From an uncultured beta proteobacterium (lineage in GTDB: Bacteria > Pseudomonadota > Gammaproteobacteria > Burkholderiales > Burkholderiaceae_C), in NCBI GenBank assembly GCA_903870065.1, contig CAIQBN010000560.1, forward strand, positions 1 through 32,217: DNA of 32,217 bases, written 5' to 3'. The notes beneath the pieces were generated by a model. It worked only from the letters and a program-made list of their open reading frames with translations. It did no database searches and was not told the DNA's origin. Shown here piece by piece: positions 7,777-32,217 of the stretch. The first letter of the stretch is position 1, and each line of letters begins with the position of its first letter. The position numbers and the translations under genes are program-made.

Positions 7777-8973
7777 ATGTCTCTTTTTTCTGCCGTCGAA
7801 ATGGCCCCGCGTGACCCAATTCTGGGTCTGAATGAACAATTTAATGCCGACACGAATCCCAACAAGGTCAACTTGGGCGTGGGCGTGTACTTCGACGACA
7901 ACGGCAAATTGCCTTTGTTGCAGTGTGTACAGGCAGCAGAAAAGGCCATGATGGACAAACCGACGGCGCGTGGATATTTACCCATCGACGGAATTGTGGC
8001 TTATGACAACGCGGTCAAAGCACTGGTTTTTGGAACCGACAGCGAGCCTGTTAGCGCGGGGCGCGTTGCCACCATCCAAGCCATAGGCGGCACGGGCGGA
8101 TTGAAAATTGGCGCAGACTTCCTGAAAAAAGTCAGCCCGAATGCCAAGGTGTTAATTTCCGACCCGAGTTGGGAAAACCACCGCGCACTGTTTGGTAATG
8201 CCGGTTTTGAGGTCGACACCTATGCATATTACGACGCAGTCAAGCGCGGCGTTAACTTTGAAGGCATGTTGGCCAGCCTGAACGCGGCAGCGCCCGGCAC
8301 CATTGTTGTGCTGCACGCCTGCTGCCACAACCCAACTGGTTATGACATCACGCCCGGACAGTGGGACCAGGTTATTGCCGTGTTGAAGGGCAAGGAGCTC
8401 ACACCGTTTCTGGATATGGCCTACCAGGGATTTGGTTATGGTATTGCCGAAGATGGTGCTGTGATCCAGAAATTTGTTGCCGCAGGACTGAATTTCTTTG
8501 TCTCAACCTCCTTTTCCAAGAGCTTCAGTCTCTACGGTGAGCGGGTTGGCGGATTGTCGGTACTGTGCAAAGACAAGGAAGAAGCTGGTCGGGTCTTGAG
8601 TCAGCTCAAGATCGTGATCCGGACCAACTACTCCAACCCGCCGATTCATGGTGGCGCTGTGGTTGCTGCAGTGCTGGGCAACCCTGAATTGCGTGCCCTG
8701 TGGGAAAAAGAGCTCGGCGACATGCGGGTGCGTATCAAGGCGATGCGCCAAAAACTCGTGGATGGCCTGAAGGCTGCCGGCGTGAAGCAGGACATGGGCT
8801 TCATCACCACCCAGATCGGAATGTTCAGCTACTCGGGCCTGACCAAGGACCAGATGGTGCGTTTGCGCAACGAGTTTGGCGTTTACGGCACCGATACGGG
8901 CCGGATGTGCGTGGCTGCTCTCAATAGCAAAAACATTGACTATGTGTGTGCATCGATCGCAAAAGTTATCTAG
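7777..8973 (+). CDS. tyrB: Aromatic amino acid/aspartate aminotransferase (class I)
   Basis: This is a 398-residue class-I PLP aminotransferase that transfers the amino group between glutamate/2-oxoglutarate and aspartate or aromatic amino acids. The N-terminus MSLFSAVEMAPRDPILGL and motif NPNKVNLGVGVY are typical of the AspC/TyrB group. The Schiff-base lysine is K248 (STSFSKSFSLYGERVG). HNPTGYD, DMAYQGFGYG, the side-chain carboxylate arginine region RTNYSNPP and the C-terminal arginine in GRMCVAALN are all present. AspC and TyrB cannot be told apart with certainty by eye; TyrB is the usual name in Burkholderiales. An AGGA ribosome site lies just before the ATG. The gap to the upstream gene is about 107 nt, so it may have its own promoter. 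Confidence 0.9.
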   Translation: MSLFSAVEMAPRDPILGLNEQFNADTNPNKVNLGVGVYFDDNGKLPLLQCVQAAEKAMMDKPTARGYLPIDGIVAYDNAVKALVFGTDSEPVSAGRVATIQAIGGTGGLKIGADFLKKVSPNAKVLISDPSWENHRALFGNAGFEVDTYAYYDAVKRGVNFEGMLASLNAAAPGTIVVLHACCHNPTGYDITPGQWDQVIAVLKGKELTPFLDMAYQGFGYGIAEDGAVIQKFVAAGLNFFVSTSFSKSFSLYGERVGGLSVLCKDKEEAGRVLSQLKIVIRTNYSNPPIHGGAVVAAVLGNPELRALWEKELGDMRVRIKAMRQKLVDGLKAAGVKQDMGFITTQIGMFSYSGLTKDQMVRLRNEFGVYGTDTGRMCVAALNSKNIDYVCASIAKVI

Positions 8974-9276: not shown

Positions 9277-10650
9277 ATGCTGTACCAGTTTTATGAATCT
9301 CAACGCTCATTGATGGAGCCATTTTCAGACTTGGCCCAGACTGCGGCCAAAGTTTTTGCGAATCCGCTGTCGGTGGTTGGCCAAAGCCCGTTCGCCCAGC
9401 GAATTTCTGCCAGCTATGACCTGATGCACCGGTTGGGCAAGGACTATGAGAAGCCGGAATTTGGTATCCGCACGATTGATGTCGATGGTATTGAGGTCGC
9501 CATCCATGAGCGCGTCGAAGTTAATAAGCCGTTTTGCGAATTGCGCCGGTTCAAGCGCTACAGCGATGACCAGGCAACCCTTGAAAAGACAAAAGACCAA
9601 CCGGCAGTGTTGATCGTTGCGCCTCTGTCGGGACATTACGCAACCTTGTTGCGTGACACGGTCAAGACCATGCTGAAGGACCACAAGGTCTACATCACGG
9701 ATTGGAAAAATGCCCGGCTGATTCCGATGTCCGAGGGTGAGTTTCACCTCGATGACTATGTAAACTATGTGCAGGAGTTCATTCGCCACGTGCAGCACAA
9801 ATATGGCAATTGCCACGTGATGAGTGTCTGTCAGCCCACTGTGCCCGTGCTGGCGGCCGTATCGCTGATGGCAAGCCGTGGCGAAACAACGCCACTGACG
9901 ATGACCATGATGGGCGGGCCAATCGATGCGCGCAAGTCACCAACTGCGGTCAACAACCTGGCAATGAACAAGAGCCACAATTGGTTTGAAAACAACGTGA
10001 TTTACCGCGTGCCAGCGAAATTTCCAGGTGCTGGGCGGCGGGTATACCCAGGCTTTTTGCAGCACACCGGTTTTGTTGCCATGAATCCTAGCAACCATGC
10101 CAAGAGCCATTACGATTATTTCAAAGACCTGATCAAAGGGGATGAGGCCAGCACAGAAGCACACCGCAAGTTTTACGATGAGTACAACGCAGTGCTGGAC
10201 ATGGACGCCGATTACTACCTGGAAACCATCAAGGTGGTTTTCCAGGATTTCAGTCTGGTCAATGGGACTTGGGACGTCGTCAGCGTCAAGGGCAAGTTGG
10301 AGCGTGTTCGTCCTGCCGACATCACGACAACTGCCCTCTTCTCTGTAGAAGGCGAGCTTGACGATATTTCTGGATCAGGCCAAACCCAGGCCGTCCATGA
10401 AATTTGCACCGGCGTGCCGAACTCCCGCCAAAATCACTTCGAAGTCAAGGGCGCGGGCCACTACGGGATATTCTCGGGTAAGCGCTGGCGCGAACATGTC
10501 TACCCCCGGGTCAAGAGTTTCATCCTTGCCCACCATACCAATGGCGCTGCGTCAGTCACTACAGCACAAAATTCAGCGGTAGCCCTCGCAGACACTGCGC
10601 AGCCTGCTACTAAAAAAGTAGCATCTAAACGCGCGCCAACGAAAAAGTGA
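9277..10650 (+). CDS. phaZ: Intracellular polyhydroxybutyrate depolymerase PhaZ
   Basis: This 457-residue protein matches intracellular PHB depolymerases of the Cupriavidus PhaZ1 type, which mobilise native PHB granules in the cytoplasm. The N-terminus [16 protein letters not shown] is characteristic. The catalytic nucleophile is a cysteine, C185, in [10 protein letters not shown], with apparent partners D362 ([11 protein letters not shown]) and H395 ([10 protein letters not shown]); the recalled Cupriavidus triad is C183/D355/H388, so spacing is preserved. The last 35 residues are a low-complexity Ala/Thr/Lys-rich tail, part of which is encoded by the hairpin repeat at 10605. Its stop overlaps the start of the RnfB-like gene, so the two are probably cotranscribed. 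Confidence 0.92.
10605..10623. repeat. 19-bp hairpin repeat, copy 2 (3' end of phaZ)
   Basis: TGCTACTAAAAAAGTAGCA, with arms TGCTAC/GTAGCA. It lies in frame inside phaZ and encodes part of the Lys-rich C-terminal tail (PATKKVASK). The flanking TCTAAACGC resembles the right flank of the copy at 25169. Confidence 0.65.
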
Positions 10651-25228: not shown

Positions 25229-26164
25229 TCAGGGTTTGGACACAAGATAGACCCCAGGCAAGATTAACGCAGCACCCGCCAGATGGTGCCACCCCAGAGG
25301 CTCGCCGAGCACGCTCCAGGCTGCCAAGGCCGCATAAAGCGGCCCAAGATACAGCGTTACGGCGACGCGGCTGGCACCAAGTATCTTTTGCGCCCATCCG
25401 TAAATCCAATACGCCGCCAACCCCGGCGCCAGAGCCGCTGTAACAACCAAACCCGTTGCTGTCCATGACCAATCTGGGGTTCTGGATTGCAGCATCTCCC
25501 ACGCCGCACAGGGCAGCAGCACCGCCACGCCACCGGCGCAAATGACCGCTAGGCGCGCGGTCGACCCCAGCGGGCTGGGCCAAAGCTTCTGCAGTAACGC
25601 ATACAAAGCCCATGCCACCATGGCAGCCACAATCCACGCGTCGCCGGTTACCCACTGCACCTGGTTCAACGCCATCCATTGACCTTTAACGATGACGTGC
25701 ACCACCCCGGACAGGGCAATCACCACCCCCACAGCCTGCAGCAAGCGAAAACGCTCGCCCAATAACACCACGGCTCCCAAAGCAATCAGCACGGGTGAGG
25801 CGGAGTAAATCAGCGAAATATTCATGGCGGCCGTAGTCTTGGCGCCCACGTACACCCAGGCCCCACAAACCAACATGCCGCAAAAGCCCAGCACCACGTA
25901 CTGGTACCAAACAACTGCAATGGTGCGTCGCTGCGCCCAAAGCTCCTGGCGCGCCGCCACGGCGAGCAGCCCGCCAGCCAAAGCCCATCGCCCCAACGCC
26001 AGAGAGTAGGGCTCCACCACGCCGGGTGCTCGCCTGGCCACGATGTAATTCACAGCCCACAACGCTGGCACGCCCCAAATGGCAAATCGCGCCAGCCGCT
26101 CACGGCGCTCGTGCTGCGCAGAAGCCAACGAAACTTTGTCAAGCTGCTGCAAACGTGCCCCCAT
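25229..26164 (-). CDS. EamA/DMT-family inner-membrane transporter
   Basis: This is a drug/metabolite-transporter-superfamily permease with about ten hydrophobic segments in two EamA repeats; the first begins at FAIWGVPALWAVNYIVARR and the second after the VHVIVKGQW region. The substrate is unknown; relatives export amino acids or other metabolites. The frame is open further upstream into dusA, so the start is uncertain: ATG at 26162-26164 is chosen, giving 311 residues and about 30 before the first helix. ATG at 26183-26185 is an alternative, and neither has a good ribosome site. The 5' end overlaps the 3' end of dusA, suggesting coupling. Confidence 0.8.
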   Translation of the reverse strand: MGARLQQLDKVSLASAQHERRERLARFAIWGVPALWAVNYIVARRAPGVVEPYSLALGRWALAGGLLAVAARQELWAQRRTIAVVWYQYVVLGFCGMLVCGAWVYVGAKTTAAMNISLIYSASPVLIALGAVVLLGERFRLLQAVGVVIALSGVVHVIVKGQWMALNQVQWVTGDAWIVAAMVAWALYALLQKLWPSPLGSTARLAVICAGGVAVLLPCAAWEMLQSRTPDWSWTATGLVVTAALAPGLAAYWIYGWAQKILGASRVAVTLYLGPLYAALAAWSVLGEPLGWHHLAGAALILPGVYLVSKP

Positions 26165-27179
26165 GCGATTGCGCAAGGACCTCATATGCCGACAGGCTCT
26201 TGAGTCGGTGGTCACTCCACACCTGACGCCAACGGCGAGCTCCGGGCAGCCCGTGGCGCAGGCCCAGCATGTGGCGTGCAATGGCACTCCACGGCGTGCC
26301 GTGTAGCGCTGACTCGCGGGACATATAGTCCACCATCTGCAGCTCGACCGATTCGCGGGTCAGAGCGGATGCGCACTCACCATAAAAAGTCGCGTCCCAA
26401 TCACACATCAACCATGGGTTGTGGTATGCCTCGCGCCCCACCATCACGCCATCCACTGACAAAAGTTGTTCAGTAATCTGCTCGTTGGTGGTAATGCCAC
26501 CGTTGATGGCGATGCTAAGTTGCGGAAAATCACGTTTGAGCTGATGCACCAACCCATAACGCAATGGCGGCAGTTCGCGGTTTTCTTTCGGACTCAGGCC
26601 CTTGAGCCAGGCATTGCGTGCATGCACAATAAACACCCTGCAGCCCGCCTCGCTGACTATGCCGACAAAGTCACGGACAAAGGCATAACTCTCCGACTTG
26701 TCGATCCCAATGCGGTGCTTGACCGTTACCGGAATATGCACCACGTCGACCATGGCCTTGACACAATCCGCCACCAGCTTGGGCTCGGCCATCAGACAGG
26801 CACCAAAGGCTCCGCGCTGCACCCTCTCGCTCGGGCAACCGCAGTTGAGGTTGATTTCGTCATAGCCCCAGTCCTGACCAAGGCGGGCGCAATGTGTCAG
26901 GTCTGCTACATCACTGCCACCCAGTTGCAGAGCAACCGGGTGTTCATCTGCGCTGTAGCGTAAGTGGCGCTCTACATCACCATGAATCAGAGCTCCAGTG
27001 GTCACCATTTCGGTGTAAAGCAAGGCTTTTCGACTCAGCAAACGGTGGAAATAGCGGCAATGCCGGTCGGTCCAATCCATCATCGGCGCGACAGATAACC
27101 GCCACGCCGTTGATTCATAACGTTTTTCTTTAAAATCAACAGCTTGCGACTGCTTTTCTATTGTCTCGTTTCCTGTCAT
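26139..27179 (-). CDS. dusA: tRNA-dihydrouridine(20/20a) synthase DusA (5' end remodelled by island)
   Basis: DusA is an FMN enzyme that reduces uridine 20/20a in tRNA D-loops. The product is 346 residues. SVAPMMDWTDRHCRYF (29-44), LLYTEMVTTGA, PVALQLGGSD, the catalytic cysteine C115 in NLNCGCPSERVQRG, VKHRIGID and INGGI are all present. Conservation begins at about W26; residues 1-25 (with TIEKQSQAVDFKEKRYES) are unlike the core and probably come from the inserted element, which would then supply the start codon and promoter. The gene is otherwise intact and overlaps the downstream transporter. Confidence 0.93.
   Translation of the reverse strand: MTGNETIEKQSQAVDFKEKRYESTAWRLSVAPMMDWTDRHCRYFHRLLSRKALLYTEMVTTGALIHGDVERHLRYSADEHPVALQLGGSDVADLTHCARLGQDWGYDEINLNCGCPSERVQRGAFGACLMAEPKLVADCVKAMVDVVHIPVTVKHRIGIDKSESYAFVRDFVGIVSEAGCRVFIVHARNAWLKGLSPKENRELPPLRYGLVHQLKRDFPQLSIAINGGITTNEQITEQLLSVDGVMVGREAYHNPWLMCDWDATFYGECASALTRESVELQMVDYMSRESALHGTPWSAIARHMLGLRHGLPGARRWRQVWSDHRLKSLSAYEVLAQSHGGTFAAA
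27070..27110. other. Presumed attachment site (island end) in the 5' part of dusA
   Basis: Integrases of the dusA-associated family recombine within the conserved 5' end of dusA. Here that segment encodes AWRLSVAPMMDW (residues 25-36, about 27072-27107). One junction must lie in or near it. Exact core borders cannot be set because the other end is outside the window. Confidence 0.5.
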
Positions 27180-27191
27180 TTACGCTTATTT

Positions 27192-27229
27192 GGTGCTATT
27201 TCGTTATGTTGGTGCTACATTCGGTGCTA
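27192..27229 (+). repeat. Three GGTGCTA direct repeats upstream of the integrase
   Basis: GGTGCTA occurs at 27192-27198, 27211-27217 and 27223-27229, with a related inverted TAGCAC at 27244-27249. They lie between the dusA start and the integrase start, where arm-type integrase sites or an autoregulatory site would be expected. The function is inferred. Confidence 0.6.
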
Positions 27230-27273
27230 CTTGACCGACCGCGTAGCACTGAAACGAATGATGGGACCGACCA

Positions 27274-28377
27274 ATGGGAACGATTACAACACGGAAGCGA
27301 AGTGATGGAACGATGGGCCACACGGCCCAGATCCGCCTCAAAAAAGCGGGCCGCATCATCTTCAGTGAGTCCAAGACTTTCGACCGAAAACCGGCCGCAT
27401 CGGCTTGGCTCAAGAAGCGCGAGACTGAATTGGCCGAACCCGGTGCCCTGGAACAGGCGAAGATTGAAGACCCCACCTTGGCCGACGTCATCGATAAGTA
27501 CAACCAGGACACCATTCGCCCCCACGGCAAGACCAAGGACCAGGTTCTGCGCAGTATCAAGGAATCCAGTCTTGGTGAGCTGCTTTGCTCTGAGATCAAG
27601 AGTCACACGCTGGTGGAGTGGCTGCAGGGAATGACGTCGCAGCCGCAAACCCGCTCCAACTACCTGTCACACCTTGGTTCAGTTTTCAGTGTGGCCCGGC
27701 CTGCGTGGGGTTACCCGCTGGACAAGCAGCAAATTGACGATGCACGCATGGCGGCTGATCGGCTTGGGCTGATCAGCCGGTCCAAGCAACGCACCAGGCG
27801 CCCCACTCTGCCCGAGCTGGACAAACTAATGGCGCACTTCACGGTCAGCGAGAAAAAGCGATCCAACGCGATCCCCATGACAAGCCTGATTTTGTTTTCG
27901 ATCTACGCCACCAGGCGCCAGGAGGAATCCTGTCGCATGGTGGCGGAAGACCTTGACGTGGAGCAATCCGAGATCATCGTGCGCGATATGAAAAACCCCG
28001 GCGAGAAAATCGGCAACGATGTGATCACTATGCTTCCGCCCGAGGCCTTGAAGCTGATCCAGGCTCGCAAAGTGACCAAGGGGCGAATTTGGCCGTTCAA
28101 CGCCCAGTCGGTCAGTTCGTCATTCACTCGTGCGTGCCAGATCCTGGGAATTGAGGATTTGCACTTCCATGACCTGCGCCATGAAGGTATCAGCCGCCTG
28201 TTTGAATTGGGCTGGAACATCCCCCGCGTGGCCTCTGTGTCGGGCCACCGCAGCTGGAAGAGTCTGCAGCGCTACACGCATATGAAGCAGACCGGTGACA
28301 AGCTCAAAGACTGGAAGTGGCGGGTGCAATTGCCAGTCGCAAAAAGTACAGACGAAAAAAATCCCCCGAGCCCATAA
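27274..28377 (+). CDS. Tyrosine recombinase, dusA-associated integrase type
   Basis: This 367-residue site-specific recombinase has an N-terminal arm-binding region (about 1-60), a core-binding region (about 65-165) and a C-terminal catalytic domain. The catalytic set is complete: R214 (YATRRQEES), probable K240, H299 and R302 (HDLRHEGISRLFE), H325 (SGHRSW) and the nucleophile Y334 (LQRYTHM). The HDLRHEGISRLFE and ATRRQEE forms are typical of integrases that use dusA, and the gene is 94 nt from the dusA start, divergent from it. GGGA lies seven bases before the ATG. It should integrate and excise the island. Confidence 0.93.
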   Translation: MGTITTRKRSDGTMGHTAQIRLKKAGRIIFSESKTFDRKPAASAWLKKRETELAEPGALEQAKIEDPTLADVIDKYNQDTIRPHGKTKDQVLRSIKESSLGELLCSEIKSHTLVEWLQGMTSQPQTRSNYLSHLGSVFSVARPAWGYPLDKQQIDDARMAADRLGLISRSKQRTRRPTLPELDKLMAHFTVSEKKRSNAIPMTSLILFSIYATRRQEESCRMVAEDLDVEQSEIIVRDMKNPGEKIGNDVITMLPPEALKLIQARKVTKGRIWPFNAQSVSSSFTRACQILGIEDLHFHDLRHEGISRLFELGWNIPRVASVSGHRSWKSLQRYTHMKQTGDKLKDWKWRVQLPVAKSTDEKNPPSP

Positions 28378-28503
28378 GCACCAAAGCTAGCAGTCTTGAT
28401 AAGAGCCCAATTGGCGGGCGAATTTTGCTCTCTATTCACGAGCTGCAGCCCTCAATCCGACTTTCTCGACGCCGTGCCAAACTCGTCGCCGATTAGCTAG
28501 AAA

Positions 28504-29565
28504 TTACTTTTGTTCACGCCAGGAATTACCATCGTCCAGAAGTCTTGAACGCCTAGTTCTCCCCCAATCATCGGGGGGGCTTTCAGACGTAGAAACGATG
28601 GCTCTTTCCCTTGCCTTTTTTCTTAAACTCTCTTCTGCTTGTTTCACGCGTTCATAAAACTGTTGGCGACTTAATTTTTCTTCAGCTGGCGACAATTTCT
28701 TACGCTGGAATTGAGTTGAAACTGGGTTAACTTCAGACTCAGGAATTGTTTGATAAAGCTCTACCCATCTCTGGATTGCAGATCTCTCCTTCTCGTTGAA
28801 TACGAGAGCCCTGTAATAAGCGGCATCATCGATAGTGGCATACCTATTCACTTGCAACTGAAATGCGACAAACGCTGCAAAAAATCTGACATCCTTATCG
28901 AAATCTGAGCAAAAGTTCTTACGGGGGAAAAAGACCTGCTTAGTGCTTCTTCGTACCTGCAGAATGGCGTTTCTCTCATCTGGGTTGAATACACTTTTTG
29001 GGAATAAATCCTCAACTTCATTTCTAGAGACATCCGGAGATGCAATTTTGCTCACCTTGGGCAGAGCAACGTTGCGTGGCGCAGCTGACTTTGGCGTTGA
29101 ATCTTTGCACCTGGCCTTCAGCTCTTTTCGCACTTTGAGACGATATTCGTCAGACTCTGCAAGACATAACCAACCAGCCACTTGCTCGAAACGGTCACGA
29201 AAAATGGCACTAGCCAAGTAACCACACTTCTCGAGAGACTTCATGACGTGGGAATAGACATGCTCGTTGTCAACGTTATAGCTAATCAGATTGAGCCAAT
29301 CTACCAAGTCAACATCGTTTGTCTTAATTTGTTCTCTTTGCTGACCTTCACTTTCAAAAGTGCCATCGAGATACGAATAAAGTGAGATGTAGTTTTGGTG
29401 CCTGGGTTTCAAGACCGCATGGCAATTCTCCACAAAACATGCGATGAATCGCTTTTCGTCTAATGACAAAAATTCCATACCGGGATCTCCATCTAGCAAT
29501 CTTATTTGTCGGTTAATCTGAAAAATTCGATTAGTCGAGTTTCGAGAACCAATTCCGCCAATCAA
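28504..29565 (-). CDS. Hypothetical protein (353 aa), island cargo
   Basis: This protein was not recognised. It is 353 residues and mostly hydrophilic, with no signal peptide or membrane helix. Residues 30-150 look globular and helical (EFLSLDEKRFIACFVENC, VDWLNLISYNVDNEHVYSHV). A linker rich in Ser/Pro/Lys follows around 155-185, then a second globular part with two similar phrases, FNPDERNAILQVRR and FNEKERSAIQRWVE, and a strongly charged coiled-coil-like tail. The TTG at 29563-29565 is supported by GAGGGG five bases upstream and overlaps the stop of the preceding gene (TTGA); an ATG at 29476-29478 with GGAG eight bases upstream is an alternative. It is the last gene of the cargo operon. 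Confidence 0.75.
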   Translation of the reverse strand: MIGGIGSRNSTNRIFQINRQIRLLDGDPGMEFLSLDEKRFIACFVENCHAVLKPRHQNYISLYSYLDGTFESEGQQREQIKTNDVDLVDWLNLISYNVDNEHVYSHVMKSLEKCGYLASAIFRDRFEQVAGWLCLAESDEYRLKVRKELKARCKDSTPKSAAPRNVALPKVSKIASPDVSRNEVEDLFPKSVFNPDERNAILQVRRSTKQVFFPRKNFCSDFDKDVRFFAAFVAFQLQVNRYATIDDAAYYRALVFNEKERSAIQRWVELYQTIPESEVNPVSTQFQRKKLSPAEEKLSRQQFYERVKQAEESLRKKARERAIVSTSESPPDDWGRTRRSRLLDDGNSWREQK

Positions 29566-30500
29566 GCAGGCCCCTCAAAAGGACCACTTTCCCAACATTG
29601 CCCACAGCTTTCTTCCGGCCACATATTCGCGTCGTAGCCACACTTATTGCATTTGTAAAGCTTACCCTTGCCGATCTTCTTACCCTCGATATATCGCCAA
29701 CTTCCCATCTTGGGGGACGGATCCAAGTAACGCCTCAATTCAGCTATGGACTTTGCGTCTTGCCGTGCAACTTCTGCAGCCAGCTTTGCTTCTTTGGCAA
29801 TGTTCTTTGCATTTCTCTCTAAATGCTCAGTTGTCGCGGTTGTGGACAATTGTCCCGTTGGTGTCTCTGATCCTAACGAGGCAACTTGACTGGACATATT
29901 TACTTTTTTCAAGCTCTGCGGGGGGGACGGAACCTCTGTGACTTCAAAAGTCATCTTGCTCAAATATTTTTGAGAAATTTTCCCTAACTGACCATCTGAA
30001 TTCTTAGGAGCCACCTTAGTTAAATGAATTCCATTGCCAATCGGACACTCATACGGCCACTGAGGCGAATCCAGATTTACAGTCAGTGAATCAATTGCAT
30101 CCTGAGCGTCCTTTAGGTCCTTAAAGATTGTTTTTGGCGCTCCATTTGAGCTTATGCATTCCGGACATATCTCCCGCCGGACATAACTCGAAATTGGCTC
30201 ACGTTCGTAACTTACATGAACGTCCAACCTTTCCCTACTGGTTAGGCCAAACCCGTTTATGTCGTAAAGATGAAAATTGCCGCATTTGGAGCAATGTGCC
30301 TCCGAGGAGGAAATTGATGCTACCGACCAGAGATTTTCCCGCGCATCAATAGCATCTTTCTGCAACTGATACCGCAGTAGTAAAAATTTTGTCCACATGT
30401 CAAAGCACGGCAATTTGCCCTGCGCTGAGTCATCAATCTTCACCATGGCGTTGTCTTTTTTTTGGATCGCTAATTGATAATGTTTTGGCTTATCACTCAA
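29562..30500 (-). CDS. Double zinc-ribbon protein (312 aa), island cargo
   Basis: No known family was recognised. Two zinc-binding sites are evident: C70/C73 with C112/C115 (HCSKCGNFHLY and ICPECISS) and a C-terminal ribbon C284/C287/C299/C302 (YKCNKCGYDANMW, ESCGQCWES). Between them is a low-complexity Ser/Thr stretch and an alanine-rich predicted coiled coil (ERNAKNIAKEAKLAAEVARQ). There is no membrane helix. The start is uncertain: a TTG at 30498-30500 overlaps the DUF3553 gene stop (TTGA), while an ATG at 30444-30446 would give 294 residues; neither has a clear ribosome site. The ribbons suggest nucleic-acid or protein binding, which is inference. Confidence 0.75.
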   Translation of the reverse strand: MSDKPKHYQLAIQKKDNAMVKIDDSAQGKLPCFDMWTKFLLLRYQLQKDAIDARENLWSVASISSSEAHCSKCGNFHLYDINGFGLTSRERLDVHVSYEREPISSYVRREICPECISSNGAPKTIFKDLKDAQDAIDSLTVNLDSPQWPYECPIGNGIHLTKVAPKNSDGQLGKISQKYLSKMTFEVTEVPSPPQSLKKVNMSSQVASLGSETPTGQLSTTATTEHLERNAKNIAKEAKLAAEVARQDAKSIAELRRYLDPSPKMGSWRYIEGKKIGKGKLYKCNKCGYDANMWPEESCGQCWESGPFEGPA

Positions 30501-30696: not shown

Positions 30697-31332
30697 TCAA
30701 TCTGCAAGTTTCTTACGCCACGCTAGATTGTTAGCCTTCTCCGCATCAGTTTCTGCTTCTTCATCGACATTTTTCCAAACAGTCTGGAAGTGTGCACCAA
30801 TGATGTCGCCGCGCACAATGACGTAGCCCGCCCGTAATTCTTTGTGACCCCATCTCGTCCAGTTCGCCGAAAAGGACCAGATGGCATCATCTGGTCCCAT
30901 ACCCTCCAGAAACGTCTTCCATGCGGAGTTCAGATGACCAAATGGCAACGCAGGCACCGCACCCAATGGATCTATGACGCGTTCACGAGATTCAATTTCT
31001 TCAACTGACAGTCTCTCTTGAAAATCATCGCGGCCGACTGAAAATTCACGCTGCTCGCCAGCAGATGCGCCTGAGTTGAAATCCATTCCCAGCATATCTT
31101 TGACCTTCATGAAAATGGCAATAGGCCACCCGACCACCACAGCAACAAAGGCAAGCAGCGGCACCACAAAGTTGTGCAGGATTCGATACGAGAGTTTCTC
31201 CCGATCTGGGTCCATGGCATTGAGAATGTCACGAAACGAATCCGACTCCTTCTTTTTCGTCTGCAGATGCGCACCGAGCACGACGACAAAGACAAACGCA
31301 CCGAATCCAAGATACCAATACAAATAGATCAC
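30697..31332 (-). CDS. Two-helix membrane protein of unknown function (211 aa)
   Basis: Two membrane segments are visible, one at the extreme N-terminus (about residues 3-21, YLYWYLGFGAFVFVVVLGA) and one at about 54-77 (FVVPLLAFVAVVVGWPIAIF), followed by a soluble domain of about 130 residues containing WSFSANWTRWGHKELRAGY and VIVRGDIIGAHFQTVWK. No family was recognised. The GTG start overlaps the preceding stop (GTGA) and has a strong GGGGAGGT five bases upstream, which fixes the start. It is expressed with its neighbours; the C-terminal domain is probably cytoplasmic or periplasmic depending on topology, which cannot be decided. Confidence 0.75.
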   Translation of the reverse strand: MIYLYWYLGFGAFVFVVVLGAHLQTKKKESDSFRDILNAMDPDREKLSYRILHNFVVPLLAFVAVVVGWPIAIFMKVKDMLGMDFNSGASAGEQREFSVGRDDFQERLSVEEIESRERVIDPLGAVPALPFGHLNSAWKTFLEGMGPDDAIWSFSANWTRWGHKELRAGYVIVRGDIIGAHFQTVWKNVDEEAETDAEKANNLAWRKKLAD

Positions 31333-31829
31333 TTGACCTCCCCACTACCCTTGAATGGCCGGGGGAACACGGTCATGGCCCCCACTTCATAACCTTCAGG
31401 GGCCGTTTCGGACTCAGACTTTCCGTTGTGGCGTACGCGAGTCGTCTTTACGATTCCGCGCTCAAGATCCAGCAGCACATCGCACTCGTAAGTGCTGCCG
31501 TAGCCCATGTGAACATACTCAAGCTGTTTTCCCTGGGGAATCCTGATCGTGCCGGAGTACCAGTGAGCGAACACTCGATCTGGAAAGTCGGGAAACATAG
31601 TTGTCAATGAAGCCTCGACACCGCCTTCAAGCGTGCCGCTGATACCAATAAGGTACAACCTGCCATCCAAAATTTCCCAGCTGCCGACATAGCCACGCCA
31701 GAGCGCCGTGCAATTAGACTCAAAACCTGGATTGACACCACCCATGCCGAAATAGTCACTCAGCGGGTTGGTGCACATTGGGAGATCTTCTCCGTTGTAA
31801 TGCAACCGCTCTGAAAATTGAGCTGTCAT
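31329..31829 (-). CDS. Conserved hypothetical protein with WRGYVGSWEI motif (166 aa)
   Basis: This soluble 166-residue protein has a distinctive ALWRGYVGSWEILDGRLYLIGISG segment (about residues 42-65 in two halves), FPDFPDRVFAHWYSGTIRIPQG and YVHMGYGSTYECD. I recall similar unannotated proteins in other proteobacteria but know no function. There is no signal peptide or membrane helix. The ATG has GAGGA seven bases upstream, and the gene lies 22 nt after the ClpP-like gene. Its stop overlaps the next start. Confidence 0.75.
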   Translation of the reverse strand: MTAQFSERLHYNGEDLPMCTNPLSDYFGMGGVNPGFESNCTALWRGYVGSWEILDGRLYLIGISGTLEGGVEASLTTMFPDFPDRVFAHWYSGTIRIPQGKQLEYVHMGYGSTYECDVLLDLERGIVKTTRVRHNGKSESETAPEGYEVGAMTVFPRPFKGSGEVK

Positions 31830-31851: not shown

Positions 31852-32217
31852 TTATCTGTATTCCGGACCGCGATCGCTCCACCAGGCGGTCGCAAATCCT
31901 GACGCTTTTAACTCAAGGACATCTGGACGCCACAGGTCGTAATACGAAGTGTTCAGGGCTTTGCTGATGAATGGCTCCGGCAAGCCCTTCGCCCGAAAAT
32001 CAATGGACGTCATGTACTCGGTGATGGACCACTCTGTGTCGCGTGGCCTGCCCTTGTAACCAGACTGATGAAAACCGAATCTGGCATCTTGATCAACGTA
32101 CCTACGCTCTCCAGCCAGAAAAATATCGGTACATGCACTGGCACATTTCTCCCGCACAAATGTGTCGAGATGATTGCTTTCAACGATTGCGACCAGTTTG
32201 TTCATCTCGGAGACATA
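31852..32217 (-). CDS. ClpP/COG3904-like protein (5' end cut by window edge)
   Basis: This is the C-terminal 121 residues of a protein whose frame runs off the right edge; an internal ATG at 32203-32205 is probably not the start because the frame continues upstream (YVSE before MNKL). The segment REKCASACTDIFLAGERRYV followed by RFGFHQSG is typical of ClpP-like periplasmic proteins of the COG3904 group, where a serine in CASAC is the presumed nucleophile. The upstream glycine-rich part and any signal peptide are outside the window. It is the first visible gene of the leftward cargo operon. Confidence 0.7.
   Translation of the reverse strand, partial: YVSEMNKLVAIVESNHLDTFVREKCASACTDIFLAGERRYVDQDARFGFHQSGYKGRPRDTEWSITEYMTSIDFRAKGLPEPFISKALNTSYYDLWRPDVLELKASGFATAWWSDRGPEYR

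Follow-up and report, generated by a model that had tools for sequence, protein, structure and literature searches.

In this uncultured beta proteobacterium, a mobile element has very probably inserted into the front of dusA and substituted a front end of its own, leaving the gene whole (probability about 0.92). The window analyzed here is the whole of contig C560 (32,217 nucleotides) of the assembly G000, a metagenome-like assembly of 5.45 Mb in 703 contigs with 88.7% completeness and 4.2% estimated contamination; C18, referred to throughout, is another contig of the same assembly. As judged from sequence, the integrase belongs to the dusA-associated family, dusA is chimeric, an orphan native start survives in the same genome and relatives occur in an attP form. 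The window contains the following features.

26139-27179, minus strand: dusA, chimeric as judged from sequence, frame intact; 346 aa (Pfam Dus, 1.3e-83; NCBIfam DusA model PRK11815.1, 2.2e-161)
27066-27089, minus strand: putative recombination core; 21 of 24 bases equal the orphan-end copy on C18 (22472-22495), longest identical run 27070-27083
27084-27179, minus strand: 5' coding stretch of dusA, codons 1-32, probably element-supplied; unlike the native start on C18, resembling the start in the element of locus L109
27180-27273, no strand assigned: divergent intergenic region of the element, defined by sequence; promoters are presumed to lie here
27193-27249, no strand assigned: presumed arm-type integrase words, GTGCTAT at 27193, GTGCTAC at 27212 and 27224, and GTAGCAC at 27243; their role is presumptive
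27274-28377, plus strand: tyrosine recombinase of the dusA-associated integrase family; 367 aa (Pfam Phage_integrase, 5.1e-17)
28504-29565, 29562-30500, 30697-31332, 31329-31829 and 31852-32205, minus strand: visible cargo, five ORFs

The integrase gene is divergent from dusA and 94 nt away from it (gap 27180-27273), as the initial annotation had stated, and the protein contains the signature string HDLRHEGISRLFE noted there. The claim of full catalytic residues was borne out as well: R214, R215, K240, H299, R302, H325 and Y334, which we take to be the catalytic residues of a tyrosine recombinase, are invariant among ten aligned sequences, the integrase and nine relatives. With its RHRH/Y residues and the matched Phage_integrase domain, the protein has the tyrosine-recombinase character of a dusA-associated integrase (DAI). 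No solved structure with sequence similarity to it was found at E 0.001. A phage collection yielded 138 matching records, the best being Burkholderia phage AH2 with 54.5% identity over the full length; H66 (49.0%), BcepMigl (45.6%), DC1 (45.5%) and BcepIL02 (45.3%) matched too. AH2, BcepMigl, BcepIL02, DC1 and H66 are all among the DAI carriers given in the covered part of Farrugia et al. 2015 (PMC4482086). The integrase is homologous to these published proteins and 78 of 79 scorable GTDB relatives adjoin dusA, in agreement with the earlier remark that integrases of this group use the dusA 5' end. By analogy, this integrase is likely to have carried out the insertion and to be active.

The association with dusA was followed through two sequence collections. 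Among GTDB genomes, 482 integrase relatives were confirmed and 80 kept, 79 of them with at least 260 nt upstream (L290 was excluded). Since a dusA core lies no more than 450 nt away in all 79, and the sequence runs on into the dusA body in 78 (74 called by script, L247, L255, L270 and L312 by eye, with L271 as the exception), the adjacency of integrase and dusA is not due to chance. In IMG/VR, 474 stretches matched the search pattern, 456 encode integrase relatives and 80 were kept; the upstream side was read for 41, the other 39 having at most 37 bases before the match. The core is present in 36 of the 41 and was not found in five, which have at most 200 nt upstream. Twenty-one of the core-bearing loci run on into dusA and 15 do not, and in all 15 of the latter an open frame has the reading of a DusA start as far as the core, the core itself having a changed residue in a few. 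On this basis the 15 core-bearing loci without a dusA body are taken for attP forms, i.e., unintegrated elements. The closest integrase in the genus (68% identical) is that of G060, whose integrase-bearing contig also has genes for tail, lysozyme and excisionase. This phage contig (L065, G060:C114) has the attP form, with integrase side, core (8453), far side and a PrtN/excisionase gene (8551-8823), and it carries in frame a DusA N-terminus ending at the core.

C560 terminates at 32217, within the element; visible are about 5.1 kb at its near side and 0.4 kb at its far side. A search for a second copy 10-60 kb downstream was therefore impossible within the window. A core copy lies outside the window, on C18. 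There, the native DusA start MHRLSVAPMMDWTD is preserved and cut at the same core as window 27066-27089: the orphan end reads ATG CAC CGT TTG TCC GTT GCC CCA ATG ATG GAT TGG ACG GAC, after which dusA is lost and element-like sequence stands in its place. The gene order before the orphan start is a HemN-like gene, a DsbD_2-type membrane gene and a WS/DGAT gene, and the DNA preceding it aligns with that preceding the uninterrupted dusA of G030 and G022. Both borders have the near-direct repeat (27066-27089; C18 22472-22495), and the presumed far one retains the original 5' end of dusA. Allowing up to two mismatches, the G000 assembly contains two true cores and no third. Four extra matches with two mismatches each were rejected, and a backward control pattern itself gave eight matches. 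An ORF beyond the orphan core (L061:9604-10001 of G000:C18; 116 aa, 9637-9987, minus strand) matched nothing in Pfam, NCBIfam, PHROG or PADLOC.

The crossover can be located to within the 24-base core. The longest identical run of the two core copies is ATGATGGATTGGAC (27070-27083), corresponding to DusA residues 33-37; therefore at least residues 1-32 would come from the element, and the comparison supports an element origin for at most 38. The initial annotation had proposed that an element sits in the dusA 5' end and probably supplied the first 25 residues, with the boundary at W26. Its insertion and new start are supported by the orphan native end and the attP-form relatives, but the replaced stretch comprises 32-38 residues rather than 25, and a boundary at W26 is too short given an identical core run at residues 33-37.

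A Dus-family match was obtained in 41 of 41 genus genomes including the own one, and a close match (E below 1e-100) in 37. DusA N-terminal starts differ across the genus, as seen at 29 loci compared from other genomes. Integrase-free relatives with the same N-terminus and the same intergenic sequence, which had been named as the observation that would speak against the insertion, are absent from these 29 loci; G003 (L005) shows a mere faint resemblance in this stretch. Core-proximal parts do mix: in its N-terminal stretch the window is similar to L109, a locus with a 55% identical integrase and a different kind of outer words.

The native neighborhood could be recognized in other members of the genus. 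At 10 of the 29 loci read from other genomes, a DsbD_2-type membrane gene lies at most 600 nt upstream of dusA, with a WS/DGAT gene between the two in G030, G022 and G021. A search for the DsbD_2-type protein found it in 13 of 13 genomes, in G000 on contig C18. The recommended comparison with close relatives lacking the element gave a clear picture, as the nearest relatives G030 and G022 have an uninterrupted dusA beside the same neighbor gene.

Occupied sites were found in the genus as well. At a cutoff of E 1e-15, 14 of 100 genus genomes have an integrase match, which lies within 400 nt of the dusA core in six (G000, G001, G049, G051, G058 and G092) and elsewhere or on another contig in eight. 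More distant integrases, 32-36% identical, also stand beside dusA at L062 and L234-L237 (G001, G049, G058, G051 and G092), and GTGTGCAC-type words occur in the flank of four of these five loci (not G049). G001 carries an integrase next to dusA, and no orphan core turned up in its stretch from dusA to the neighbor gene. In the complete genome G007, orphan and dusA cores are 26.9 kb apart and 27 residues of integrase match lie beside dusA. In G009 (C31, L070:3404-5297), the two cores are separated by 2.27 kb with SLFN_AlbA_2 and DUF2971 genes between them and no integrase match, which looks like a decayed dusA island with the replacement dusA start retained. Orphan cores are also present in G020 and G029. 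Second core matches in G022, G059 and G081 were rejected as orphans, being further dusA-like genes; the two dusA-like genes of G059 lie on different contigs (L231 and L230).

We favor the insertion of an element because the orphan native start on C18 lies by WS/DGAT, DsbD_2-type and HemN-like genes with its upstream DNA aligned to G030 and G022, and because of the two true cores, the attP-form loci, the 78 of 79 GTDB relatives at dusA and the G007 ends at 26.9 kb distance. Mechanistically, the attP of the element would carry an in-frame replacement start of dusA. The integrase would bind core and arms, and attP would recombine site-specifically with the dusA codons for (AP)MMDWTD. The element's own first codons and upstream region would then replace the native ones, with the new start joined in frame. 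This would leave one complete dusA beside the integrase and displace the native start to the far border of the island.

The initial annotation further held that the insertion restores rather than breaks dusA, with a promoter supplied by the element. The first part agrees with the open frame and the one complete dusA beside the integrase, but a consensus scan detected no sigma-70 consensus promoter upstream in the divergent region. An element-supplied promoter has been demonstrated for a published relative, as described in the covered part of PMC8409611, and by analogy the new dusA would be expressed from an element promoter here.

None of the five cargo ORFs matches a Pfam, NCBIfam or PADLOC family. 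PHROG matches were obtained for the last one only (31852-32205), a weak match to phage ClpP-type proteases. No relative of ORF 28504-29565 was found in viral contigs (four pattern matches, none confirmed) or in plasmids, and the G+C content falls to 0.44-0.45 at 28500-30500. No phage structural gene was recognized in the visible cargo, no mobilization genes were found on the cut contig, and a search of the incomplete G000 assembly for a PrtN/RdfN gene gave none, with G060 as positive control giving a match. At the other end of dusA, an EamA-type transporter ORF (25229-26287) overlaps the dusA 3' end by 149 nt when read from its first possible start; its start is likely further in.

GTAGCAC (A-type) and GTTGCAC (T-type) words on both sides of the core presumably represent arm-type integrase sites; similar words adjoin the core in related elements. 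For G000, the word counts are 3 A : 0 T on the window side and 0 A : 2 T on the C18 side. In each of the 21 scored elements (14 A-type, 7 T-type) the two sides share one arm type; owing to kinship these are not 21 independent events. The scored set comprises 13 viral attP places (L209, on the same contig as L076, L213, L077, L079, L080, L083, L085, L086, L087, L089, L091, L092 and L102), L065 of G060, and the border pairs of G007, G009, G104, G109, G110, G111 and G108 (right side of G108 by eye). The types of G104 (left 1 A : 2 T) and G111 (left 2 A : 1 T) were assigned by majority, and the pairing of the G109 borders, which lie on different contigs, is presumed. Thirteen candidates were left unscored: L081, L135, L145, L202 and G105 had a side without a scored word, and for G103, G106, G107, G112, G113, G114, G115 and G116 no far end was found or scored. 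From the 21 viral places compared, L195, L204, L106 and the second of L092 were discarded as not being true cores. The left-arm word TTGATY, present in 2 of 27, is no commoner than in shuffles and was dismissed as a general arm site. The right-flank word RATCAA occurs in 12 of 19; base shuffles gave 1.0 on average and at most 5.

We infer a single island with the C18 and C560 ends as its two borders. Counted against the insertion model as a whole are the unlinked contigs (each contig end matched only itself, with no C18-C560 link via shared ends), the differing arm types, the lack of a PrtN/RdfN gene and of a promoter-like site in the searches described above, and the G001 locus without an orphan core. 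The unlike arm types in G000 would mean either that the C18 end comes from another island, or that the bin is strain-mixed, or that divergence or recombination has altered the arms.

An additional or an older island may be the source of the C18 end. Two islands could have entered dusA successively, in tandem or as an older relic plus the present one, with C18 as the far end of a GTTGCAC-type island, the window as the near end of a GTAGCAC-type island and a third core unassembled, a possibility to which we give limited credence. It would account for a 3 A : 0 T window facing a 0 A : 2 T C18 side when the sides agree in all scored elements, and the integrase-free 2.27-kb relic of G009, T-type at both ends, fits with it; the G000 assembly, however, contains neither a third core nor a third arm pair, and single elements can mix words, as on the left sides of G104 and G111. 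Tentatively, then, the dusA start here might have been overwritten at least twice by elements with different arm words (GTTGCAC and GTAGCAC), and dusA of the genus might be a palimpsest whose N-terminus in some genomes is left over from past islands even without an integrase, as in G009.

That C18 and C560 stem from two related strains with different dusA islands, mixed in one bin, is improbable: the metagenome-like assembly, its estimated contamination and the unlike arm types would permit it, but one dusA body and one integrase are all that was found in G000. A variable native start with an integrase adjacent by chance, and hence no replacement at all, is hardly credible even though DusA starts vary across the genus, as the native start survives on C18, cut at the core, and N-termini of this kind are present on free elements (all 15 viral loci of that form).

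Insertion with replacement of the dusA front places the element among known systems. The strategy of keeping dusA whole by a new front end is already known from many phages and islands. According to the covered parts of PMC4482086, a prtN/rdfN gene is present in 60 of 94 dusA-specific islands, the repeat of these islands is given as a 21-bp logo, and excision has been published for the DAI family. The element resembles these islands in an integrase that is divergent from and adjoins the dusA 5' end, a near-direct repeat in dusA, a probably element-supplied new dusA 5' end and the original 5' end at the outer border; it differs in host and cargo, and in being seen here through some 5.1 kb of near and 0.4 kb of far side. 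With IMEVchUSA3, a dusA-specific mobilizable element (PMC8409611), it shares a new DusA N-terminus. The covered part of that report describes transfer and dusA expression from the element promoter, at a lower level. IMEVchUSA3 has a demonstrated new dusA promoter; as a difference, no mobilization genes and no rdfN were found here, where the contig is cut. AH2, in turn, is a 58-kb phage, whereas the visible cargo here has no recognized phage structural gene. The arm-word mismatch and the relics are not described in the covered parts of PMC4482086 and PMC8409611, by which we do not claim that they are unpublished.

Taken as a sequence-based assignment, the element is a well-supported further case of the known dusA-integration strategy, in a new host. 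The core and arm words offer a means to recognize dusA islands that are split over contigs, and, as the relics suggest, a gene start can survive the decay of the island that left it, which is relevant to the remodeling of host genes by mobile elements.
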